Below are positions 35,635 to 47,406 of a stretch of DNA of 64,000 bases, one piece after another. Source of the stretch: Rosistilla ulvae. Lineage in GTDB: Bacteria; Planctomycetota; Planctomycetia; Pirellulales; Pirellulaceae. The position numbers and the translations under genes are program-made. The notes below the pieces were generated by a model. The model had not been told where the DNA came from and made no database searches. It worked only from the letters and a program-made list of their open reading frames with translations. The DNA lies in contig NZ_CP036261.1 of NCBI RefSeq assembly GCF_007741475.1, positions 7,131,798-7,195,797 on the forward strand. The letters are read 5' to 3'. The stretch's first letter is position 1. Every line of letters starts with the position of its first letter.

Positions 35635-38600
35635 ATGCTCCCGACCGATATTTTTGTCGTCACCCAGCCTCGTCTCGCTTCGATCGACCTCGCTATCGCC
35701 GCCTGCCGCGCGGGCGCGATCGGCACCCTCGACCTCGTCGGCAACGGAGATTCGACAGCGACTTCCATCAACCGCATGGTTCGCTTCACGAACAACCCCT
35801 TCGCCGCGCGAATCGACCACAACACTAAATCGCGTCACATCGAACTTTTGGTTCAACACGCTTCGCAGCTCGATGCGGTGATCTTGGCAGGTGAATTCAC
35901 GCCCCAACTGGTTTCGACACTACGCAGCCTGCTCGGCAACGACGTTCGATTGTTGGCAGAGATCACGCGCAGCGAGACCCTTCAAGAAGCGATCGGCCTG
36001 CCGCTTGATGGCGTGATCCTCAAGGGGAACGAAGCGGGCGGCTGGGTCGCCAGCGAAACCACCTTCTTGCTGCTGCAGCGTTGGGCCCGATTGGACGACG
36101 CGACTCGCCAGCGTCTGCCCGCCTACGCTCAAGGTGGAATCGGCCCACACACCGCCGCCGCTTGCGAAGCGGCCGGCGCTCGCGGCGTCGTCATCGATTC
36201 TCAGGTCCTCTTGGCCCAAGCATCGCCACTCTCCCCCGCAGCCGCCACCTGGGTCCGATCCTATGACGGCAGCCAGACTCATTTGTTGGGCGAAGCGTTG
36301 GGGCGATGCTTCCGATTTGCCGCGCCGCCAAGCGCGGGACTCGTACAACAACTGCGCGAACTCGAACTGAACCTGTTGGCCAAACAGGAAGCCGCCCCCG
36401 ACCAATCGCTTGCACAAGCCTGGATCGACGGCGTCGAACAAGCAGTCGCGGCAAACGATGACCCGCGCGTCTTGATCGCCGGCCAAGACCTCGCCTTTGC
36501 CGCGGGACTGGCCCAGCGCTGCGTCGACGTTCGCGGCACCGTCACCGCCATCATCGATCAATCGCGCGAGAACATCCAAGCGGCAGCCGAAGTGAATCCG
36601 TTAGACGCCGACGGACCGCTCGCCGCCAGCCACGGCATCGGGTTGCCAATCGTTCAGGGCCCGATGACGCGAGTCAGCGACACGGCGGAGTTTGCCGAAG
36701 CGGTCGCCAGCGAAGGAGGCCTGCCGCTGATCGCGCTGGCCCTGATGCGCGGCCCCGAAGCCTCCAAAATCCTGGCAGCCACGCGAGCCAAGCTGGGCGA
36801 TCGCGGTTGGGGTGCGGGCCTGCTGGGCTTCTTGCCGCCCGAGATCCGCAACGAACAGATCGCTGCGATTCGAGAGCACCGACCACCGGTTGCCCTGATC
36901 GCAGGCGGGCGTCCCGACCAAGCCAAAGAACTCGAAGCGATCGACATCCCGACCTACCTGCACGCCCCTTCGCCGGGGCTGCTGGAAATGTTCCTCCGCG
37001 ACGGTGCCCGGCGGTTCGTCTTCGAAGGCCGCGAGTGCGGCGGACACGTCGGACCGCGCAGCAGCTTCGTGTTGTGGGAAAGCTTGTTGGTCGTCCTCGA
37101 AGCGTTCGCCAAGAAGAATCCCAGAGAAGTCGCCAAGCTGCATCTGCTGTTCGCCGGCGGCATCCACGATGGCCTCTCCGCCGCGATGGCAACATCGGTT
37201 GCCGGCCGTCTGTCGCAATTGGGAGCCAAAGTTGGCGTGCTGATGGGCTCGGCTTATCTGTTCACCAAAGAAGCTGTCGAAGCCGGCGCGATCGTGCCAC
37301 GCTTTCAAGAGGAAGCGATCCGCAGCCACGACACCGTCCTCTTGGAAACCGGTCCCGGCCACGCGATCCGCTGTATCCGAACCCCTTACCGCGACCTGTT
37401 CGATCGCGAGCGGCGACGACTGGCTGGCGAAGGCAAAACAGCCGACGAGATCACACGCGAACTGGAATGGATGAACATCGGGCGGCTGCGCGTCGCCAGC
37501 AAAGGAATCGAGCGATCGACGCCCAGCGATGGTGGCAAGAGCAAACTGGAAAACGTCTCCAGCGACAAACAATACGAACGCGGAATGTACATGGTCGGCC
37601 AAGTCGCCGCGCTCCGCGACAGCGTGACGACGATCGGCCAACTGCACGCCGATGTCAGCCAAACCGGAACGCAGCGACTGCAACAAGCCGCGGCGAATTT
37701 GAACGTCGCTCCCAAACCAAGCTTCACCGATTCGGTCGACGCGCCGCCTCCCTGCGATATCGCGATCGTTGGGATGAGTGCGATGTATCCCGGCGGCAAC
37801 GAACTGGCGCAGTACTGGGAGAACATCCTCAACAAACACTACGCCGTCACCGAAGTCCCTCGCGATTCGCACTGGGACTGGACGTTGTTCTACGATCCCG
37901 ACCCGCGAGCTCCCGATAAGATCGTCAGCAAGTGGGGCGGCTTCCTGACCGACCAAGTCTTTAATCCGTTCGAATACGGGATCACGCCGCGAAGCATCGC
38001 ATCGATCGAACCGCTGCAATTGTTGCTGCTGGAATCGATGAAGCGAACGCTGTCCGACGGCGGTTACGATCGCCGACCTTTCAACCGCGAAACAGCATGT
38101 GCGGTGCTGGGCATCGGCGGCGGTGGCAGCCCAATGGGCGTGATGTATGGCATCCGCAGCTCGTTGCCGATCATCGAAACCGCTCCCGAACTTCCGATCG
38201 GCGGTCAAGCGATCTACGACGCGGTGAAGAACCATCTGCCCGAGTGGACCGAAGATTCGTTCCCCGGAATTTTGATGAACGTCGCCGTCGGCCGCGTCGC
38301 CAACCGGTTTAACCTGGGCGGATCGAACTACGCTCTGGACGCCGCCTGCGCCTCGTCGCTGGCCGCGGTCCACGCCTGCATCCGCGAATTGCAACTGGGA
38401 ACCACCGACGTCGCGTTTGCGATGGGTGCCGACACCGTGCAAACGCCTTACGCCTTTATGGCCTTCAGCAAAACGCACGCCCTCTCGCCGCAGGGACGCT
38501 GCCGTCCGTTCGACGCCGAAGCCGACGGGATCGTGCTCAGCGAAGGCCTTGGCATCGTGATGCTGAAGCGTTTGGCCGACGCCGAGCGCGACGGCGACAA

Positions 38601-41600
38601 GATCTACGCAGTCATCCGCGGCATCGGCAGCAGCAGCGACGGCAAGGACAAAGGGCTGACCGCCCCCAACGCCACCGGACAGATCCGCGCCCTGCGACGC
38701 GCCTACGAACAGGCCCGCGTCGAACCATCGTCGATCGGTTTGGTCGAAGCCCATGGAACGGGAACCGTCGTCGGCGATCGGACCGAAGCAACTTCGGTCG
38801 CGACCGTCCTGGACGAATCGGGAGCTCGCCGCCAATCGGTTGCGATCGGCAGCGTTAAATCGATGATCGGTCACAGCAAGTGTGCCGCCGGCGTCGCGGG
38901 TCTGATCAAAGCCGCGATGGCCTTGCACACCAAGACCCTGCCGCCGACGCTCGTCGAAACGCCCAGCCCCGCGATCGACTTCCCCAACACCGGGCTGTAC
39001 CTGAACACCGAGACGCGTCCCTGGATCAACGGCGAAGATCACCCACGTCGCGCCGGAGTCAGTGCGTTCGGATTTGGCGGCACCAACGTCCACTTGGTCC
39101 TGGAAGAATACACCGAAGACTTCGCCAATCCGCCCGAGGTCGCTCGCGACCACTGGCCCGCCGAACTGCTGGTCTGGCGAGCGGCGAATCCTGCCGCATT
39201 GCGAACCGAACTGACGCGGATCCACGCCTGGCTGGCCGCCGGCGCGATGCCGGAACTGCCCGAATTGGCAGCTTCGCTGGCCGACGCCTTTGAAAAGACA
39301 ACCGCCTCGGGATGCGTGGCGGCAATCGTTGCCAAGGACCTGGGCCAGCTGACCGACCATCTGGCGATCGCGATCGAAAAATGTGAAGCGACGCCGTTGG
39401 CGATCTCCGATCCGCGCGGCATCTACCTCGCCGAGATCGAACCCGAGACCGCGGGCAAGGTCGCGCTGCTGTTCCCCGGCCAAGGAGCGCAATATCCCGA
39501 CATGCTCGCCGAACTGCTGCTCGCATTCCCCGCGGCACACGCTGCGGTCGATCATGCCGCCGCGGTCTACGACGAACATTTTGCCGGTCGATTTGCTCAA
39601 CTGATCTATCCGCCATCGCCGTTCTCCGACGCCGATCGCGATGCCAACCGTAAGGCCTTGGCCGACACCGCGGTGGCTCAACCGGCACTCGCCGCCACAT
39701 CGTGGGCCGCGCTGCAGGTGATCGATGCGTTGGGGATTCGCGCCGATGTCGTCGGCGGTCACAGCTTTGGCGAACTAGTCGCCGTGGCAGCCGCCGAAGC
39801 GTTGACGTACGACGATCTGTTGAGCCTTGCCGCGGCGCGTGGCGACGCGATGCGATCGGCCGCTCAACCGCAGCCCGACGGCGGTTTTGCCGGAGCGATG
39901 GCGGCGGTTTCCGCCGACGCAGCCACGATTCAAAAGGAGCTATCCGCCGCCGGATTAGCCGAAGCGATCACGATCGCCAACGACAACTCGCCGCAGCAGA
40001 TCGTGATCTCCGGTCCCACCGCAGCGGTCGACAGCGCGATCGAAAAACTGACGGCCGCCGGAATGCGAGTCGTCAAGTTGGACGTCTCGTGCGCCTTCCA
40101 TTCGCCGCAAGTCGCCGCCGCTGGAACCGAATTTGCCGAGAAGCTCGATTCGCTCGCGTGGAAAGCTCCGCAGCGAACGGTCTACAGCAACACAACCGCC
40201 GCCAAACATCCGGCCGCTCCGGCAGAGATGCTCGCCACGCTCAAGTCGCACCTCGCATCGCCGGTTCGCTTCCGCCAACAGGTTGCCGCGATGTACGCCG
40301 ACGGCGTGCGAACGTTTATCGAAGTCGGCCCCGGCAGCGCGTTGACCGGTCTGGTCGGGCAAACTCTGCAAGGCCAACCGCACACCGCCGTCTCGATCGA
40401 TCGACGCGGTCGCGATTCGTTGACTCAATTGGTTCACACGCTGGGCCGCTTGATCACCGCGGGTGTCGACGGCATCCGGCCTTCGGCTCTGTTCGCCGCA
40501 CGTGCTCCGCAACGCATCGACCTGCGAAAATTGAATTCACAGATCGGCCATCCCGACTATCCTAAGAACGCATGGATGGTCAACGGGATGCGGAACCGCC
40601 CGATTAACGAACCGGAAAAACATTATCTGGGCCAGCGTCATCCCGACGCCGACAAACCTCGGCCGGCCGCCACTGGAAACGGCCAACCTGCGAAACAGGA
40701 ACCCGCCGCCAAACCATCGGCGGCTGCGGCAACCGCGAAACCGATTGCCGCCGCAGCGGAGCTGCAAAAACCACAACAAGTCCCAACACACAAACCTCGT
40801 GAAACGAAGCCGCTGCCGCCAGCAGCATCCGCCGCGCCACAGCGGCCGCAAAAACCGACAGCTCCAACTCCCGTTGTTCCATCTGATCAAAACACCATGC
40901 AACTAACATCCTCCGCTACGAATCGTCTTCCACAAGAAACCAACGGATCGGCTCAAGCACCCGCTGCCGCTTATCATGACGAAGCGACAGCCGTGATGCT
41001 TGGCTACCAACAACTGATGCGTCAGTTCTTGCAAACGCAACGCGATGTGATGGTCACGTACCTGCAAGGGGAAGCTCCCGAAGCCGACAACGGCATGCTC
41101 CCACAAGCTGCTCAACCGCAGATCGCTCAGCGACCGCAGCCGACCTACGCGGCGATCAGCCACAACGGCGAAAACGGCCACGCAGCGAAGCCCGCACCGG
41201 CGATCCCTGCCGCCGCGCCAGTCGCCGCTGCACCGCCAGCTGCCGTAGCTCCCGCACCCGCGCCGGCGCCAGCTGCTGCACCTGAACCGACACCCGCCGC
41301 GCCAGCACCCGCTGCCGCAACGCCTGCGGTTGCCGAACCAGCCGCCGCAGCGCCAACCGACAACGGCCAAGCGGCTCCCGCGTCGATCCAACAAGCCGAA
41401 GAAGCGCTGCTGGAACTGGTCGCCGACCGGACCGGATACCCCGTCGACATGCTCGACATGGAAGCGGACCTCGAAGGCGATCTCGGAATCGATTCGATCA
41501 AGCGAGTCGAGATCCTGGGGAACCTCGCCGAAGTCCTGCAGCTTGCTGGCGACGGCGAAGATCTGGAAGATACGCTGGAACTGGAGAAATTGACGACGCT

Positions 41601-41679
41601 TCGCACGCTGCGAGGAATCGTCGACTATCTCGATGAAGCGATCTTCAGCGACGACGCAAAAAAAAAAGTGACGTCGTAG
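35635..41679 (+). CDS. Pfa-type secondary-lipid synthase: (NMO)2-KS-AT-ACP, 2014 aa
   Basis: Type I iterative synthase. Residues 1-290 form a degenerate nitronate-monooxygenase/PfaD-like barrel (VILKGNEAGGWV); 325-650 form a second, better-kept copy (GLPIVQGPMTRVSDTAEFAE, FEGRECGGHVGPR), the enoyl-reductase family of PUFA synthases. KS starts near residue 706 (CDIAIVGMSAMYPGG), with Cys905 in DAACASS, His in HGTGT (about 1040) and in GHSKC (about 1078). AT spans about 1270-1600 (FPGQGAQYP; GGHSFGE with Ser at about 1376). A 300-residue Ala/Pro linker leads to one ACP, phosphopantetheine Ser at about 1955 in LGIDSIKR. The ketoreductase continues in the -1 frame after an A10 run. The order KS-AT-ACP-KR is that of PfaA. 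The product is probably a long-chain or polyunsaturated lipid. Confidence 0.93.
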   Translation: MLPTDIFVVTQPRLASIDLAIAACRAGAIGTLDLVGNGDSTATSINRMVRFTNNPFAARIDHNTKSRHIELLVQHASQLDAVILAGEFTPQLVSTLRSLLGNDVRLLAEITRSETLQEAIGLPLDGVILKGNEAGGWVASETTFLLLQRWARLDDATRQRLPAYAQGGIGPHTAAACEAAGARGVVIDSQVLLAQASPLSPAAATWVRSYDGSQTHLLGEALGRCFRFAAPPSAGLVQQLRELELNLLAKQEAAPDQSLAQAWIDGVEQAVAANDDPRVLIAGQDLAFAAGLAQRCVDVRGTVTAIIDQSRENIQAAAEVNPLDADGPLAASHGIGLPIVQGPMTRVSDTAEFAEAVASEGGLPLIALALMRGPEASKILAATRAKLGDRGWGAGLLGFLPPEIRNEQIAAIREHRPPVALIAGGRPDQAKELEAIDIPTYLHAPSPGLLEMFLRDGARRFVFEGRECGGHVGPRSSFVLWESLLVVLEAFAKKNPREVAKLHLLFAGGIHDGLSAAMATSVAGRLSQLGAKVGVLMGSAYLFTKEAVEAGAIVPRFQEEAIRSHDTVLLETGPGHAIRCIRTPYRDLFDRERRRLAGEGKTADEITRELEWMNIGRLRVASKGIERSTPSDGGKSKLENVSSDKQYERGMYMVGQVAALRDSVTTIGQLHADVSQTGTQRLQQAAANLNVAPKPSFTDSVDAPPPCDIAIVGMSAMYPGGNELAQYWENILNKHYAVTEVPRDSHWDWTLFYDPDPRAPDKIVSKWGGFLTDQVFNPFEYGITPRSIASIEPLQLLLLESMKRTLSDGGYDRRPFNRETACAVLGIGGGGSPMGVMYGIRSSLPIIETAPELPIGGQAIYDAVKNHLPEWTEDSFPGILMNVAVGRVANRFNLGGSNYALDAACASSLAAVHACIRELQLGTTDVAFAMGADTVQTPYAFMAFSKTHALSPQGRCRPFDAEADGIVLSEGLGIVMLKRLADAERDGDKIYAVIRGIGSSSDGKDKGLTAPNATGQIRALRRAYEQARVEPSSIGLVEAHGTGTVVGDRTEATSVATVLDESGARRQSVAIGSVKSMIGHSKCAAGVAGLIKAAMALHTKTLPPTLVETPSPAIDFPNTGLYLNTETRPWINGEDHPRRAGVSAFGFGGTNVHLVLEEYTEDFANPPEVARDHWPAELLVWRAANPAALRTELTRIHAWLAAGAMPELPELAASLADAFEKTTASGCVAAIVAKDLGQLTDHLAIAIEKCEATPLAISDPRGIYLAEIEPETAGKVALLFPGQGAQYPDMLAELLLAFPAAHAAVDHAAAVYDEHFAGRFAQLIYPPSPFSDADRDANRKALADTAVAQPALAATSWAALQVIDALGIRADVVGGHSFGELVAVAAAEALTYDDLLSLAAARGDAMRSAAQPQPDGGFAGAMAAVSADAATIQKELSAAGLAEAITIANDNSPQQIVISGPTAAVDSAIEKLTAAGMRVVKLDVSCAFHSPQVAAAGTEFAEKLDSLAWKAPQRTVYSNTTAAKHPAAPAEMLATLKSHLASPVRFRQQVAAMYADGVRTFIEVGPGSALTGLVGQTLQGQPHTAVSIDRRGRDSLTQLVHTLGRLITAGVDGIRPSALFAARAPQRIDLRKLNSQIGHPDYPKNAWMVNGMRNRPINEPEKHYLGQRHPDADKPRPAATGNGQPAKQEPAAKPSAAAATAKPIAAAAELQKPQQVPTHKPRETKPLPPAASAAPQRPQKPTAPTPVVPSDQNTMQLTSSATNRLPQETNGSAQAPAAAYHDEATAVMLGYQQLMRQFLQTQRDVMVTYLQGEAPEADNGMLPQAAQPQIAQRPQPTYAAISHNGENGHAAKPAPAIPAAAPVAAAPPAAVAPAPAPAPAAAPEPTPAAPAPAAATPAVAEPAAAAPTDNGQAAPASIQQAEEALLELVADRTGYPVDMLDMEADLEGDLGIDSIKRVEILGNLAEVLQLAGDGEDLEDTLELEKLTTLRTLRGIVDYLDEAIFSDDAKKKVTS
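41658..41667 (+). promoter_or_regulatory. A10 slippery run at the frame junction of the lipid synthase
   Basis: Ten consecutive A lie ten bases before the TAG stop (41677) of the synthase frame. In the -1 frame the sequence is open from the TGA at 41634-41636 through the run into the ketoreductase ORF, reading K-K-K-S-D-V-V-D-P-A-A-A-V-E-P, a linker of the same Ala/Pro/Glu kind used elsewhere in the protein. A 4-5 bp hairpin (41686-41697) and a perfect 6-bp hairpin (CCGCTG 41704-41709 with CAGCGG 41716-41721) follow. A-runs like this support ribosomal -1 slippage or RNA-polymerase slippage, and are also prone to sequencing error. Confidence 0.6.
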
Positions 41680-41741
41680 ATCCAGCCGCTGCGGCGGTCG
41701 AACCCGCTGAACCGACAGCGGTTGCCGAACCCGCGACCGCT

Positions 41742-43415
41742 GTGGAATCAACGCCCCCAGCGCCCGAAGCATCACCAGCCGCAGAGGTCGTCGACGACGG
41801 AACGATTCCGATCTCGCGAGGTGGCGTGCGGTTGATCCCCGCGCCATTGGGCAGCAACCTGGGTGCTGGGATCTTGCCCGCCGGAACCGTGGTCATCACC
41901 TGCGATGACCGCGGGATCGCCAACAAAGTCGTCGAACGTTTTGACATGTTCGACCATCCCACCGTTCTGCTGCGTCATGTCGACGGCAAACCGTTGGACC
42001 TGTCGACGATCGACGATGTGATCGAAGCCGATCTCAGCGACGCCGCGGTGATCGATGCTCTGATCCCAGCTCTGCGTCAGCACCACGACGCCCTGGCCGG
42101 ACTGATCCATCTATCGCCTCTGTCGCAGTTTAGCGACACCGACACCCTTGTCGATCGCGCACGCCGCGATTCCCGTTCGCTCTACCTGTTGGCTCGGGCG
42201 ATGGAATCGGATCTCACCGAAGCGGCTAAGAACGGCAGCGCAGTCCTGCTGGCAGCAACCGCCATCGACGGACGACTCGGCTACGGCACGTCGGCCGACC
42301 AACCAATCGCTCGCGCCGCCCATGGCGGTATCTTGGGTCTGGTTAAATGCATCGGCTTGGAATGGCCCGACGTCTTGGTTCGCGCCGTCGATATCTCCCC
42401 CGAAATGAACACCGCCACGACGTTTGATGCCATCGCGGCGGAACTGGGACAGTCGACAGGACCGCTGGAAATTGGTGTCAGCAGTGCTAGCCGGATCACC
42501 TGGGAACCGATCGCCGCGACGATCGATCCCGCCAACGAAAACAAGCTGGTTCTGGAACCAGGTGAAGTGATCGTGATGACCGGTGGCGCCCGAGGGATCA
42601 CCGCCGAGATGGCGGTCGGCCTGGCGAAGAAGTATCAACCGCAATTGGTTTTGCTGGGACGGTCTCAATTGCCCGAACAGGTTGAACCGGCGGAGATCGC
42701 TGCCGCGACCAGCGACGTCGAACTGAAATCCGCCCTGATCCAACTGGCCAAAGCGCGAGGCGAAACGCCCAAACCGGCCGAGATCGGACGCCAAGCGAAT
42801 CGCATCATGGCGGCTCGCGAGATCCGGCAAACGTTGGATCGAATCCGGCAGGCCGGCGGTCACGCCGACTACCGATCGGTCGACGTCTCGGATCGCGAAT
42901 CGTTTGCCGCCATGCTGCAGAACATCCAAGCCGAATACGGCCAGATCGCCGGAGTGGTCCACGGCGCGGGAGTGATCGAAGACAAGCTGTTGCGCGACAA
43001 GACTCCCGATTCGTTCGATCGCGTCTTCAACACCAAAGTCCACAGCACAGCGGGACTGATCGATGCGATCGCCCCGAACCAATTGAAGTTCCTCGCCCTG
43101 TTTGCTTCGGTCGCCAGCCGATTTGGCAACCGCGGACAGAGCGACTACGCGGCGGCGAACGAGGTCCTGGGAAAAGTCGCCTGCACGCTGAACCAAGCCT
43201 GGCCACAAACGCGGACCTTCGCGGTCGCTTGGGGACCGTGGGCGGAAATTGGAATGGTCGCCGACCTGGAGAAGCATCTCACAGCGCGCGGGCTGACCCT
43301 GATCCCACCACCGCTGGGCGTGCAGATGTTCCTCGACGAAATCGCCAGCGGAGATCGGGGAACCCCCGAAGTGATCATCGCCGGCGGCGCAGAACAGCTG
43401 GCCACGCCGAACTAG
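41742..43415 (+). CDS. Ketoreductase part of the Pfa-type synthase (in -1 frame)
   Basis: The frame is open from 41637, but the only standard start before the domain is GTG 41742, which has no ribosome site; translation most likely enters from the upstream frame at the A10 run, giving a combined protein of about 2593 residues. Residues 1-270 are the structural sub-domain of a modular ketoreductase (VRLIPAPLGSNLGAGILPAG). The catalytic Rossmann half has IVMTGGARGITAEMAVGLAK (NADPH site), VVHGAGVIEDKLL and SDYAAANEVLGKVA with the active-site Tyr. It would reduce the beta-keto group on the ACP-bound chain. No dehydratase domain follows; the gene ends with TAG 31 bases from a convergent gene. Confidence 0.9.
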   Translation: MESTPPAPEASPAAEVVDDGTIPISRGGVRLIPAPLGSNLGAGILPAGTVVITCDDRGIANKVVERFDMFDHPTVLLRHVDGKPLDLSTIDDVIEADLSDAAVIDALIPALRQHHDALAGLIHLSPLSQFSDTDTLVDRARRDSRSLYLLARAMESDLTEAAKNGSAVLLAATAIDGRLGYGTSADQPIARAAHGGILGLVKCIGLEWPDVLVRAVDISPEMNTATTFDAIAAELGQSTGPLEIGVSSASRITWEPIAATIDPANENKLVLEPGEVIVMTGGARGITAEMAVGLAKKYQPQLVLLGRSQLPEQVEPAEIAAATSDVELKSALIQLAKARGETPKPAEIGRQANRIMAAREIRQTLDRIRQAGGHADYRSVDVSDRESFAAMLQNIQAEYGQIAGVVHGAGVIEDKLLRDKTPDSFDRVFNTKVHSTAGLIDAIAPNQLKFLALFASVASRFGNRGQSDYAAANEVLGKVACTLNQAWPQTRTFAVAWGPWAEIGMVADLEKHLTARGLTLIPPPLGVQMFLDEIASGDRGTPEVIIAGGAEQLATPN

Positions 43416-43446: not shown

Positions 43447-46400
43447 CTACGTTTTCGCGCCGTACCCGCCGCCGCCGGGCGTCCGCAAGGTGATCCTGTC
43501 GCCCGCTTGGACTTCGATCCGGCAACAGGCGGCGAGCCGCTGTTTCACGCCGTCGACCGCGGTGTGCCAATTCTCGCCCAACGCGCCATCGGCTCCGCCA
43601 GCGAGACCGTAGGGTGGGCGATCGGTTCGCCGCCCGGTCAAAAGCGAGACGGTCAGCGGTTTCAAAAACTCGACCTCGCGAATCGCGCCGTCGCCGCCGC
43701 GATGTTCCCCCACGCCGCCGCTGTCGCGTCGAATCGCAAACCGAATCAAACGCATCGGATACCGCAACTCGAGCACCTCCGGATCGGTGATCCTTGTGTT
43801 CGTCATGTGCGTGTGGACCGCCGACGCTCCGTCGCCAGTCGCCGTTGCGCCGCTGCCACCACAAATCGTTTCATAGTAGCCGAACGTGGCGTCGCCGATG
43901 ACGAAGTTGTTCATCGTCCCTTGGCTTGCCGCCGCCACGCCCAATGCTCCCAACAGCACGTCGACCACGCGTTGGCTCGTCTCCACATTCCCCGCCACCA
44001 CCGCGGGACACTTTCTCGGATCGTCGTCTCGCGTCGGGTTCAACAGCCCAACCGGTAGATGCAGGTCGACGCATCGCAGCACGCCTTCGTTCAACGGCAG
44101 CGGTTGATCGATCAAGGTTCGCAGCACGTACAAAACCGCTGCGGTCACAATCGCCGGGGTCGCATTAAATCCGCGCGGATGGACGCCCGCGGTGCCGGCG
44201 AAATCGATCCGCAAGCGATCGTCGATGACTTGCATCTGCACGCAGATTGGCGTGCCATCGTCCAGAGAGTCTTCGAACGTCATCTCACCGGCGGGCAACC
44301 GGCGCAGGCGAGCGGAAACCGCGGCGGCGGCGACATCTTGCAGATGCATCATGTAGCGATCGACCACCGCGCCGCCGTATTGAGCGACCAACGCGCAGAG
44401 ATCGCGTGCCCCGCCCGTTCCGGCGGCTTGCTGCGCTGCAATGTCGGCAAGATTCTCCGCCACGCATCGCGAAGGATATTCGCCGGCCGAAAGCAACCGC
44501 TTCAAATCCTCTTGATGTTGCTGGCCGTTGCGGACCAATGCCAGACCGCGAATCAAGACACCTTCCTGGCTGAGGTTGCTCGCGTCCGGCGGCATCGATC
44601 CGGGCGTGACCCCACCGATCTCAGCGTGATGCGCTCGGCTGGCGACAAAGAAATCGGGACGTCTCGTTCCCTGATCGCTCGCCGATTGCGGATCGCTATC
44701 GACAAAGACCGGCGTGATCACCGTCACGTCGGGCAGATGCGAACCGCCGGCAAACGGATCGTTGGTGACAAAACAATCTCCCGGAAACATCTCGGGAAAC
44801 TGCTGCATGATCGATCGGACGGTATGCCCCATCGCCCCCAGATGCACCGGCACGTGAGGCGCGTTGGCGACCAGGCTGCCGTCGCCGCGGAAGACTGCAC
44901 AACTGTAGTCCCGCCGCTCTTTGACGTTCACGCTGATCGCGGTCCGCCCGAGGACCAGTCCCATCTGATTGGCGATCTGCTGGAATCGGCTGGCAAAAAT
45001 CTCCAACAGCACCGGATCGCAAGTCGCTTCGTCCGTTTCAACAGCAACTCGCCGATCGCTTGCCCCTTCCTCTTGAACCAGCACGATCGAATGGTCTTCG
45101 GCGACCTGAGCCTTCCAGTTGCGATCGACGATCAACGTGTGATGATCCGACGCGACGATCGCGGGGCCAACGATCTGCGATCCGGGGACCAATTGATCGC
45201 GGTCGAACGAAGCAACTTGTTGCCAGCGGTCGCCGAGCCAGACCTCTTGAAACACTGTCGGTTGGCAAGCCTGCGATTCGACTTCGGCAAGAGGCTGCAG
45301 ACTCGCTGCACCCGGCAAGCTGACAGTCGCACGAACCGCGACAAGTTCCAACGGTTGATCGATCCGCTGGTACCCAAACTGTTCGCGATGCTGACGGTGA
45401 AACGCCGCTGCGATCTCGTCGCGCGATCGGCAATCGATCTCGAGCGCCGCGTCGGTTCCGAGGTAGCGGACGTCGATCGTTTGTCGAATCGTTGCCGCGA
45501 CACCGTCGGGAGCTGTTGGAAGTTCGGCGAGCGCCTGTTGCGTGACTGCTTCGATTCGATCGGTTAGTTCCTCGTCGGAGACCTTTTCCAGCGGCCGATA
45601 GATGCCGTGCGATTGCGTGTTGCCCGTCGCGGCCAGTCCCATTCCCAACGCGCTCAGCAGACTCGCTTGCGGGTGATCGATGATCTTGCGAATCCCCAAC
45701 ACCTCGGCGACATCACACAGATGCTGCCCCGCGGCGCCGCCAAATCCGACGAGCGTCATACCTCGCGGATCGCGGCCTTCGGCGGTCGTGACCGCGCGGA
45801 CGGCTTCGGCCATATGATGGTTCGCGATCGCGCGAAAGCCAGCGGCCAACGCCTCGGCCGATTCGATCGGATGCCCCGCCGCTTCCATCGTCTGCTGAAT
45901 CTCGGACAACCGAGCGATCGCTGCATCGCGATCCATCGGGAAGGGAAACCGATCGGCCAACACGCGTCCCAAGACGACGTTCAGATCGGTTACCGTCAAC
46001 GGACCGCCACGCCCATAACAGGCTGGGCCTGGATCGGCGCCAGCGCTTTCGGGCCCCACACACATCCGTTGGCCATCGAACCGGCAGATCGAACCGCCCC
46101 CGGCGGCAACCGTTTCGATCGCCATCATCGGTGTCAGGATTCGCGTCCCCGCTTTGAAGGCTTCGTATTGACGGACCGGCTGCCCCGCGAATCGACTCAC
46201 GTCGGTGCTGGTCCCTCCCATGTCGAAACCGATCGCCTCATCCGCCCCATGCGCGCGGGCGATTTCCGCCAGCGCCACGACGCCGCCGGCTGGCCCCGAA
46301 AGGATGCTGTCTTTGCCGCGGAAGGCGTCGCCGGGAACCAACGTCCCGCCACTTGTCATCAACTGCAACTGACATCGATCGACGCCGCCGAACTGCTGCC

Positions 46401-47286
46401 AAACTTGAGCGACATAGTCGGCGATGACCGGATTCAGGTAGGCATCCAAGACCGTGGTTTCGGCTCGATCGACCAACTTGATCACCGGAGCAATCCGATG
46501 CGACGCGCTCACGTTGGCGAACCCAGCGGCCAGGGCAAGATCGACCAGTGCTTGTTCGTGGGCCGGGTTGATGTAGGCGTTTAATAAACCGATCGCCAGC
46601 GATTCGGCTCCGGAGCGTCGCAGCGCGTCGATCTGCTTGCGGGCCGCGTCGAGATCCAACGGCTGCAAAATCGTGCCATCGGCGGCGATCCGTTCTTCGA
46701 CTGCGGCGACCGTCGAATAGAGCGGCTTGCGTTTGACGATGTTTAACGTGAACAGATCGGGGCGATCCTGCTGACCGATCTCCAACAGATCCTCGAAGCC
46801 GGCGGTCGTGAGGAATGCGGTCGGCGCACCGCGGCGAGTCAAGAGCGCGTTGGTGCCGCGAGTGGTTCCCATCCGAACGTCCAGCGGCGGCAGCGGTTGA
46901 TCCGCAGACAGACGCAGCAGCAGCCGCGTGGCGATCACCGGAGCGGTCAGATCGCTTGTCAGTTCGTAGGCCCAACCGGGCTGTGGCGGTTGGGAAAACG
47001 GCTCGGCCAGTTGCAACTGGCCCGTCGCGGCGGTAAACGATTCGACGACGCGTTGCTCGACGAGTGTGCCGTGAGGGTCGAGCAGCCGCAGGACCGAACC
47101 GTTCCAAAATCGGTCGGGATCGCCGACGCGAAGCCGATCGATCACCGTCGCGGCGGTCGAATCGGCGTCGATGCGTCCCTTGATGCTGCCACTGCTGAGC
47201 ACCTTGGTCCAACGCAACGGTTGTCCTGGAATCGAAACAAAACAATCGGTAAATGTGCCGCCGATATCGGCCCAGACTTTGATCAT
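43447..47286 (-). CDS. Hydantoinase/5-oxoprolinase family fusion (HyuA-HyuB), 1279 aa
   Basis: The start at 47286 (MIKVWADIGGTFTDCFVSIP) is chosen because it gives the first phosphate-binding motif of the ASKHA-fold HyuA domain; a longer frame from 47406 adds a non-conserved 40 residues. HyuA covers about 1-730, with GTTRGTNALLTRRG, IGFDMGGTSTDVSRF and LVGFGGAAGQHLCDVAEVLG. HyuB covers about 760-1279, starting DPVLLEIFASRFQQIANQMG and including DCFVTNDPFAGGSHLPDVTV and a C-terminal RTPGGGGYG. The length matches eukaryotic-style 5-oxoprolinase, which opens 5-oxoproline to glutamate with ATP; a hydantoinase or acetone-carboxylase-like substrate is also possible. It is divergent from the kinase-fold gene, 120 bases away. 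Confidence 0.92.
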   Translation of the reverse strand: MIKVWADIGGTFTDCFVSIPGQPLRWTKVLSSGSIKGRIDADSTAATVIDRLRVGDPDRFWNGSVLRLLDPHGTLVEQRVVESFTAATGQLQLAEPFSQPPQPGWAYELTSDLTAPVIATRLLLRLSADQPLPPLDVRMGTTRGTNALLTRRGAPTAFLTTAGFEDLLEIGQQDRPDLFTLNIVKRKPLYSTVAAVEERIAADGTILQPLDLDAARKQIDALRRSGAESLAIGLLNAYINPAHEQALVDLALAAGFANVSASHRIAPVIKLVDRAETTVLDAYLNPVIADYVAQVWQQFGGVDRCQLQLMTSGGTLVPGDAFRGKDSILSGPAGGVVALAEIARAHGADEAIGFDMGGTSTDVSRFAGQPVRQYEAFKAGTRILTPMMAIETVAAGGGSICRFDGQRMCVGPESAGADPGPACYGRGGPLTVTDLNVVLGRVLADRFPFPMDRDAAIARLSEIQQTMEAAGHPIESAEALAAGFRAIANHHMAEAVRAVTTAEGRDPRGMTLVGFGGAAGQHLCDVAEVLGIRKIIDHPQASLLSALGMGLAATGNTQSHGIYRPLEKVSDEELTDRIEAVTQQALAELPTAPDGVAATIRQTIDVRYLGTDAALEIDCRSRDEIAAAFHRQHREQFGYQRIDQPLELVAVRATVSLPGAASLQPLAEVESQACQPTVFQEVWLGDRWQQVASFDRDQLVPGSQIVGPAIVASDHHTLIVDRNWKAQVAEDHSIVLVQEEGASDRRVAVETDEATCDPVLLEIFASRFQQIANQMGLVLGRTAISVNVKERRDYSCAVFRGDGSLVANAPHVPVHLGAMGHTVRSIMQQFPEMFPGDCFVTNDPFAGGSHLPDVTVITPVFVDSDPQSASDQGTRRPDFFVASRAHHAEIGGVTPGSMPPDASNLSQEGVLIRGLALVRNGQQHQEDLKRLLSAGEYPSRCVAENLADIAAQQAAGTGGARDLCALVAQYGGAVVDRYMMHLQDVAAAAVSARLRRLPAGEMTFEDSLDDGTPICVQMQVIDDRLRIDFAGTAGVHPRGFNATPAIVTAAVLYVLRTLIDQPLPLNEGVLRCVDLHLPVGLLNPTRDDDPRKCPAVVAGNVETSQRVVDVLLGALGVAAASQGTMNNFVIGDATFGYYETICGGSGATATGDGASAVHTHMTNTRITDPEVLELRYPMRLIRFAIRRDSGGVGEHRGGDGAIREVEFLKPLTVSLLTGRRTDRPPYGLAGGADGALGENWHTAVDGVKQRLAACCRIEVQAGDRITLRTPGGGGYGAKT

Positions 47287-47406
47287 TCCTAGACTATCGC
47301 ATTTTTCGAGCCACTTTCCCAGACAACCTGCCCGACCGCTCGCAAACCAAGACGATTGTGAACAGAATAGAGAGAAATCTCTGGCCCTTTGTTGTTTCTC
47401 TTCCAC

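Follow-up and report, generated by a model that had tools for sequence, protein, structure and literature searches.

In Thermus dnaX, transcriptional slippage on a run of nine adenines gives the gamma and tau products (PMC1088944), and dnaX genes made of two open reading frames carry runs of 7-10 A (PMC1088944, PMC3711429, PMC5009743). The tssM genes of Citrobacter rodentium and Yersinia pseudotuberculosis have an A11 run ahead of a stop codon, and slippage there brings back a C-terminal domain at about 20-25%; the two protein lengths are both needed, as is their ratio, and Yersinia tssM3 yields mainly full-length protein (PMC4256274). Transposase genes of IS elements likewise reach an out-of-frame second ORF via poly-A (PMC1088944, PMC3711429). 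These statements rest on the accessible parts of the cited reports. For polyketide and Pfa synthases, our literature searches turned up no description of slippage.

The locus described here, from the marine planctomycete Rosistilla ulvae, resembles dnaX in having poly-A at a domain border with short and long predicted products, and in the presence among orthologues of both in-frame versions and -1 versions whose long form needs recoding (compare PMC1088944, PMC3711429, PMC5009743). It differs in what is optional: a clamp-loader tail in dnaX, but in Rosistilla one of the catalytic domains that make up a type I synthase. With tssM it shares an A run before a stop and a C-terminal domain behind the proposed slippage, but tssM offers two single cases, whereas the run discussed below spans several lineages of one enzyme family. 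The likeness to IS-element transposases ends with the out-of-frame second ORF, as the Rosistilla gene is biosynthetic and no transposase was found among ten ORFs scanned around the synthase.

In domain order, ketosynthase (KS), acyltransferase (AT), acyl carrier protein (ACP) and ketoreductase (KR), the gene matches PfaA and pfa-like secondary lipid synthases (TIGR02813), whose types D and H have a split pfaA. The preliminary description held that PfaA-type enzymes carry these four domains in one chain; the order stands, but the single chain is too strong a rule, since a split PfaA with a separate KR gene appears in the part of a published account available to us (PMC3098273). The Rosistilla synthase differs from PfaA in its extra N-terminal nitronate-monooxygenase (NMO)/FabK-like regions, its one ACP and a KR that is read in a different frame after an A run; the ten window ORFs scanned included no neighbour of pfa type, the window being the whole 64-kb stretch analysed. 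The tandem ACPs of a PUFA synthase subunit, as given in the accessible part of its description (PMC3585217), were not met in Rosistilla.

Two reading frames meeting at an A10 run

All features lie on the + strand of the window. The short form is encoded by ORF1 (35635-41679, 2014 aa), whose ATG start was assigned from the ORF only. It comprises an NMO-like region (35914-36486; best PF03060 stretch, residues 94-284), a FabK-like enoyl reductase region (36634-37659; residues 334-675, a TIGR03151 match below the cut-off of that model), KS (37756-38952; PF00109 and PF02801, residues 708-1106), AT (39469-40452; PF00698, residues 1279-1606) and ACP (41401-41631; PF00550, residues 1923-1999). The Pfam scan found KS, AT and ACP on the 0-frame product. 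It has a single PP-binding stretch and its translation shows LGIDSIKR once, giving an ACP count of one.

Behind the ACP lies an A10 run (41658-41667), the proposed slippage site, and the junction reads gcA AAA AAA AAA GTG ACG TCG TAG in the 0 frame. The TAG (41677-41679), the fourth codon past the run, ends ORF1 where the preliminary description had placed the synthase stop. The KR frame (41637-43415) is -1 relative to ORF1 and stop-free up to its stop codon at 43413-43415; it is shut upstream by a TGA (41634-41636), opens 30 nt before the run ends and continues through it, also as first described. A Pfam KR match (1.5e-37) in the -1 product bore out the claim that a ketoreductase sits behind the run, the catalytic domain (42570-43247; PF08659, residues 312-537 of that product) following a pseudo-KR half. 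Joined, ORF1 and the KR frame would give a long form of 2593 aa. Scored separately rather than joined, the 0-frame and KR parts reached 807 and 291 bits against TIGR02813 (PfaA; cut-off 1010.1 bits), and two fused relatives (G037:C10 and G033:C45) exceed the cut-off with 1173 and 1093 bits.

The suggested comparison of the run in close relatives showed that the A10, the TAG stop and the -1 KR frame are the same in both other Rosistilla species examined. The three genomes of the genus (7.3-7.5 Mb) hold 7, 4 and 7 runs of exactly ten A and no run of at least 11 A, and the + strand of the window has no other run of at least nine. Because A10 is rare per genome yet kept at the synthase border in all three species, its presence there exceeds chance.

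The KR region is intact and under purifying selection. Its dN/dS in the -1 frame is 0.04-0.12, similar to ORF1 (0.08-0.11), and rises to 1.3-5.7 in the two other frames (two pairs computed). The predicted structure is a pseudo-KR/KR fold (pLDDT 86.9) whose best PDB matches are PKS/NRPS ketoreductases. The NADPH motif TGGARGIT is present, and S456, Y469 and N473 are invariant across 11 sequences; we take these to be the Ser/Tyr/Asn residues of PKS ketoreductases, with roles presumed. On fold, NADPH motif and these residues, the Rosistilla KR meets the criteria for a PKS ketoreductase.

Split and fused relatives

The comparison set consisted of 50 loci, of which 10 are split, 4 have an in-frame run and 36 lack a run of at least nine A. 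In every split the frames meet at A9 (two loci, G056 and G736) or A10 (eight), and KR lies in the -1 frame in 10/10. The seven splits beyond Rosistilla represent seven other genera, and all have an A9 or A10 where ACP gives way to KR. Four further loci carry an in-frame A10 or A12 at this border (A12 in G588), both shifted frames meeting a stop 8-18 codons further on. All 14 runs of at least nine A in the 50 loci are at the ACP|KR border, 12 placed by a fixed window and two by inspection (the ACP of G588 is off its contig); there are no T runs of this length in the set. No frame break at the border was seen in the 36 run-less loci, in several of which no ACP motif was identified or the contig stopped short. 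Among the KR matches listed, an open frame below 800 aa was found only in the ten splits and in G114:C257, which sits at a contig edge and was left out.

Homology with fused relatives extends over the junction and is clearest in the second clade. Two members of that clade, G033:C1 and G118, are fused but have no run, which shows that the run can be dispensed with. Placing the split label on the KR tree takes four changes, three of them forced by well-supported branches, and these may be gains or losses; the run label takes six, four of them forced. The split-label count sets splits against all 40 other rows, an earlier comparison having used only the four in-frame loci. In the ten splits, border lysines are pure AAA except for run-ending codons, in genes that use AAG for 22-82% of Lys, and all five lysine triplets outside the border in large ORFs include AAG; the ten were selected by their split, not by their run. 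A related-locus search of the genome contigs returned a single, weak relative (28% across about 108 residues).

Proposed slippage and its rivals

Type I synthases are treated as having a domain content that is fixed by the gene and defines the product. If RNA-polymerase slippage decides for each chain whether it carries KR, one gene would give a mixed enzyme population at a set ratio. Annotation would then be expected to divide such a synthase into one gene for a KR-less enzyme and another for an orphan reductase, or to flag a frameshift error, and the product would be predicted wrongly. Such use would be a recurrent and testable one beyond replication, secretion and mobile elements.

We judge it probable, without RNA, protein or read data, that programmed slippage, probably by RNA polymerase, yields KR-minus and KR-plus enzymes from this gene. 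The model starts from what is observed: the anatomy of the locus, its conservation in the genus, the constraint on KR, the -1 split at A9 or A10 elsewhere and, in at least one relative, a KR without a start of its own. RNA polymerase would slip at the A10 and produce mRNAs differing in their number of A's. Unslipped mRNA would give the short form, with NMO/FabK-like regions, KS, AT and ACP before the stop, and mRNA with one extra A, or a frame-equivalent change, the long form running into the ketoreductase. The run may be maintained because it sets the share of KR-bearing chains. That slippage happens in the cell, by transcription rather than on the ribosome, and that both forms have a use, is inferred. 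The criterion for poly-A transcriptional slippage (PTR), a homopolymer of at least 8-9 A/T where frames change, is met by A10 in 3/3 species and A9/A10 in 10/10 splits; as for a conserved run and frame relation, the shift is -1 in 10/10 and four more loci have an in-frame run, with 36/50 lacking one. The slippage option raised in the preliminary description has thereby gained strong comparative support, from ten splits out of ten meeting at A9/A10 with KR in -1 and from the four tree changes.

Ribosomes making a programmed -1 shift at A_AAA_AAA or A_AAA_AAG within the run could also produce these two proteins, and a slippery heptamer does lie in the correct phase inside the A9/A10 runs of the splits, with A_AAA_AAG in G310 and G594. 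Downstream fold z ranges from about -2.8 to +0.8 in the splits, with negative values in 8/10 (9/10 in a first run); 350 random windows of the same loci average -0.23 (sd 1.13), and each of the four in-frame loci has a positive value. This mildly stronger folding possibly leans towards a ribosomal part, and because of this fold control we gave the ribosomal reading slightly more weight than before. Inside the genus, however, z is inconsistent (about -2, -1 and 0), and the Shine-Dalgarno-like 4-mer found 5' of the run in 3/10 splits is absent from the other seven, including all three Rosistilla. Nine to ten pure A's are also more than a heptamer requires, and the tssM study, in its accessible part, argued likewise from a lack of stimulators (PMC4256274). 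We regard ribosomal frameshifting as unlikely, though still the foremost rival. A sequencing undercall, in which the run is truly A11 (or A10 where A9 is read) and the gene continuous, is less likely again. It would explain why one extra A is needed in 10/10 splits, why the 3-keto-disaccharide hydrolase|ThuA gene is split at an A10 only in G000, the A10 of the two other species keeping the frame, and why no run of at least 11 A occurs in the three Rosistilla genomes, where the relatives' ratio predicts about 4.4 (P about 0.013). Such runs occur in 24/60 genomes (41 matches against 187 A10); as about ten of the 41, all from relatives, lie near contig ends, the true expectation is below about 4.4. 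These runs rule out a general assembly length cap, yet Rosistilla has them in 0/3, and two of its genomes, perhaps all three, come from one sequencing study, according to the part of that report available (PMC7716947). Against an undercall, other assemblies show the same split, twice at A9, the split genome G228 has an in-frame A11 in dnaX, G588 reads A12 in frame, and in the three further Rosistilla genes that have shared A10 sites, 9/10 A10 runs keep frame. A true A11 would still leave an in-frame run like that of G588. The A11 option of the preliminary description is not excluded for the three Rosistilla assemblies; it would not account for the other lineages and is disfavoured as a general explanation.

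Homopolymers are slippery for DNA polymerase as well, and relatives with in-frame runs exist, so that phase variation could toggle KR on and off between cells. Such switching predicts a mixture of phases; 3/3 species and 10/10 splits are in one -1 phase and no third-frame case occurs in the 50 loci, which makes it improbable. Fainter still is the prospect that KR is a separate gene, self-started or coupled, like pfaA2 of the split PfaA systems in which KR is known as its own gene (PMC3098273, accessible part). The first ATG, GTG or TTG in the Rosistilla KR frame is GTG 41742 (41742-41744), 75 nt past the run, and the preliminary description was right that it lacks a ribosome site: no Shine-Dalgarno-like sequence occurs in the 18 nt 5' of it, and it was rejected as an independent start. 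The KR frame of G736 has no start of these types until 377 nt past the run, within the domain, and in G228, G056, G355 and G284 the first comes at 22-58 nt, no earlier than the domain's first strand. On this start-codon map we rejected independent KR translation, with G310 as the exception, where the KR frame has a GTG 10 nt 5' of the run. Orthologues in which KR stood as a gene by itself, with a start codon and ribosome site of its own, would have refuted the initial reading; none was seen among the 50 loci examined. Gene decay, an indel having cut off KR with its loss under way, could point to the 0-frame stop directly past the run, but we give it hardly any credence: the domain is complete, other lineages are in the same state, and decay was rejected on the KR dN/dS and fold.

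Other A runs in these genomes

Beyond the programmed slippage favoured for the synthase, we entertain only tentatively, at somewhat under even chances, the idea that A9-A12 runs at domain borders serve planctomycetes generally as a domain-plus/domain-minus device that has evolved repeatedly. In-frame runs would give the long form when unslipped and -1 runs when slipped, and the two states would interchange. dnaX would be the old use; the ACP|KR border, an aminotransferase|thioesterase border beside a PKS and the 3-keto-disaccharide hydrolase|ThuA border would be others. The KR-minus synthase might then be a working partner, for instance setting the number of unreduced beta-keto groups.

In Rosistilla, dnaX carries a conserved in-frame A10, which we count in favour of slippage at the synthase, dnaX being the gene known for slippage in Thermus (PMC1088944). 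The 27 A9 runs of the genus, taken as background, included one other gene-border break of a similar kind, in G001. Across six split-synthase genomes, 30 of 49 runs of at least nine A were inspected; five were the synthase, three were dnaX, and another (G736 L161) lies between two long ORFs with the opposite direction of shift.

Frame arrangement and coding of the ketoreductase

The 2014-aa synthase frame, ORF1 (35635-41679, + strand), terminates at TAG 41677-41679 after an A10 run (41658-41667, +), and the ketoreductase (KR) frame, -1 relative to ORF1, is closed upstream by TGA 41634-41636 and then open to 43415 (+); the junction is exactly as given in the preliminary description. Pfam matches assigned NMO, KS, AT and ACP domains to ORF1 and the KR domain to the product of the -1 frame. 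Scored apart against the NCBIfam PfaA model, the two parts reached 807 and 291 bits, respectively (cut-off 1010). By length, one added A gives a product of 2593 residues.

Read from the run onward, the KR had dN/dS values of 0.039, 0.121 and 0.119 for the three Rosistilla species pairs (ORF1: 0.095, 0.083 and 0.108), and values of 1.3-5.7 were obtained in the two wrong frames (two pairs computed). Since dN/dS is low in its own frame and high in the wrong ones, sequence comparison indicates that the -1 KR frame in Rosistilla is very probably translated and used. The KR alone (557 aa) gave a predicted fold with pLDDT 86.9, and its best PDB matches by Foldseek were PKS and NRPS ketoreductases (e.g. 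6ulw, 5d2e, 5ktk, 2fr0).

Among the ten neighbouring ORFs scanned with Pfam, no Pfa gene was found. Matches upstream were to an AAA/helicase-like protein, a GATase/SIS protein and an NAD-dependent epimerase; those downstream were to a convergent hydantoinase/oxoprolinase, a protein kinase and two planctomycete-type proteins. The 1319-aa hydantoinase A/B (oxoprolinase-like) gene occupies 43447-47406 (- strand), convergent with the KR frame, and the three scanned + strand ORFs overlying it had no Pfam match.

The ACP/KR border in Rosistilla and other lineages

The preliminary description had proposed comparing the run in close relatives; the A10, the 0-frame TAG and the -1 KR proved common to all three Rosistilla species (genomes of 7,475,804 bp, the single contig of the window, 7,437,004 bp for G001 and 7,250,512 bp for G002). 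Relatives were sought with the KR protein or an 11-row profile in overlapping sets of 60, 241, 396 and 392 genomes, and 50 KR loci, window included, were examined in detail; some matches were never fetched. ACP and KR were split between frames at ten loci: the three Rosistilla and seven in seven other genera, with A9 at G056:C132 and G736:C3 and A10 at G228:C283, G355:C210, G284:C4, G310:C3 and G594:C12, the last encoding a different, more distant KS-AT-ACP/KR type. In all ten the frames meet at the run and the KR lies in -1; counting from the first codon within the run, a 0-frame stop is reached after 3-13 codons. Four further loci carry an in-frame run at the border, A10 in G033:C45, G115 and G012 and A12 in G588 (ACP off contig), with a stop in both shifted frames within 8-18 codons. 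These are weaker evidence than the splits because they were noticed through the run itself. A run of at least nine A was absent from the other 36 loci, several of which lack a found ACP motif or end at the contig end.

All 14 runs of at least nine A in the 50 loci lie at the ACP/KR border, and no T run of that length occurs anywhere in these loci. For the border test, 12 of the 14 fell within a fixed interval covering 26,346 of 476,652 nt; G588 and G594:C12 were placed by inspection, the KR start being poorly extrapolated from partial matches. Such clustering is very unlikely under a uniform null, a crude test with related loci. Border Lys codons compared with each gene's own AAA share gave a product of 2.7e-8 over the eight split genera, treated as independent (G594 adds little), and all five Lys triplets elsewhere in the large ORFs contain AAG.

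In the 50-KR tree (INDEPENDENCE), the split label requires four changes when set against all other rows, starred branches forcing three of them; for the run label six are required and four forced. Each change may be a gain or a loss. Rosistilla sits within a clade of 12 rows (99/97) that is otherwise unsplit, two of its rows having an in-frame run. Six splits share a second clade (100/100) with two fused rows inside, and G594:C12 is sister to the in-frame G588 (100/97). The position of the run differs as well: Rosistilla, G033:C45 and G115 have it ahead of the QRG-type strand, the second clade behind that strand, where the first pseudo-KR strand lies.

A separate KR start was considered and, from the positions of the start codons, rejected, G310 apart. 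The KR frame of G736 has no ATG, GTG or TTG from the upstream stop to 377 nt past the run, well inside the KR domain, and the first such codon in Rosistilla is, as described earlier, a GTG at +75 from the run with no ribosome site before it. In G310, exceptionally, a GTG stands in the KR frame 10 nt upstream of the run.

Polymerase, ribosome or a miscalled run

All 18 exact A10 runs of the three Rosistilla genomes were opened. Matched by flanks, A10 recurs in all three species at four sites: the synthase, dnaX, an aminotransferase/thioesterase gene and a 3-keto-disaccharide hydrolase/ThuA gene (one copy of each scanned for domains). The synthase is in -1 at its run; dnaX and the aminotransferase/thioesterase gene are in frame. 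In dnaX (L047 in G000; L042 in G001 and L048 in G002 by flank likeness only) the G000 run lies 23 residues past the Pfam match to domain III, and changing the number of A by -1, +1 or +2 brings a stop 2-10 codons on. In-frame dnaX runs were also found in split relatives, A9 in G056 (L151), A10 in G284 (L156) and A11 in G228 (L165), again past domain III and with stops 2-10 codons further in the shifted frames. This combination of in-frame runs and shifted-frame stops in planctomycetes resembles Thermus gamma/tau slippage. Because slippage occurs at A9 in Thermus dnaX (PMC1088944) and two-ORF dnaX genes with runs up to A10 have been described from other bacteria (PMC3711429), Rosistilla and the split-relative lineages probably use slippage in dnaX. 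Judged by sequence, the synthase carries the same A-run signal.

The long form could instead arise by ribosomal frameshifting, and neither route has been demonstrated. Downstream structure is mildly stronger in the splits, which raises the odds of a ribosomal origin: in the control run, the fold z of the downstream 70 nt spanned about -2.8 to +0.8 over the ten splits, eight of them below zero (about -2, -1 and 0 within Rosistilla), and was +0.6 to +1.1 at the four in-frame loci (background mean -0.23, sd 1.13, 350 windows). SD-like 4-mers occurred in 3/10 splits and in none of the three Rosistilla. That the run is so long and pure, and that such runs are used in frame in dnaX, speaks for the polymerase. 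On balance we favour RNA polymerase over the ribosome, slippage itself being inferred; the argument parallels that for tssM, where polymerase slippage was argued from a lack of stimulators (PMC4256274). Within the literature reached on slippage or frameshifting together with polyketide, pfaA or Planctomycetes, no such report was found, which is not proof of novelty because subscription papers lay mostly outside the search; the only polyketide mention found in the accessible part of PMC3711429 was a polyketide cyclase in a table.

The Rosistilla run might also truly be A11, undercalled in the assemblies. This stays open because runs of at least 11 A number zero in the three genomes against about 4.4 expected (P 0.013; the expectation falls if matches near contig ends are excluded) and because in G000 the ThuA gene appears to lack one A. 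The absence of such runs from whole genomes with 18 A10 may reflect undercalling or selection against longer runs. Were A11 correct, Rosistilla would join the in-frame class, with a slippery run still at the ACP/KR border.

Further A runs in these genomes

Beside a KS-AT PKS gene, the protein with ACP-aminotransferase III, A10 and thioesterase (L041, L039, L046; L168:10379-13606) is in frame in three species, and stops follow within 2-7 codons in the shifted frames. In the 3-keto-disaccharide hydrolase/ThuA/NPCBM gene, A10 lies at borders between domains and keeps the frame in G001 (L045) and G002 (L050/L052), whereas G000 (L044) is split in -1; G002 has a second run directly before the NPCBM domain. 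For the remaining five A10 runs (L038, L040, L043, L049, L051), no A10 was seen in the other species; at the L040 site the two others apparently have A9 (L064, L065). At L062 (G001:C1:496150), a Glycosyltransferase-4 ORF ends at A9 and an O-antigen-ligase-like ORF follows in the -1 frame; this may be a further slippage fusion or a pair of genes that overlap. At L161 (G736:C12:43886), A9 stands at the end of an ORF of at least 503 aa, and another long ORF lies in the +1 frame.
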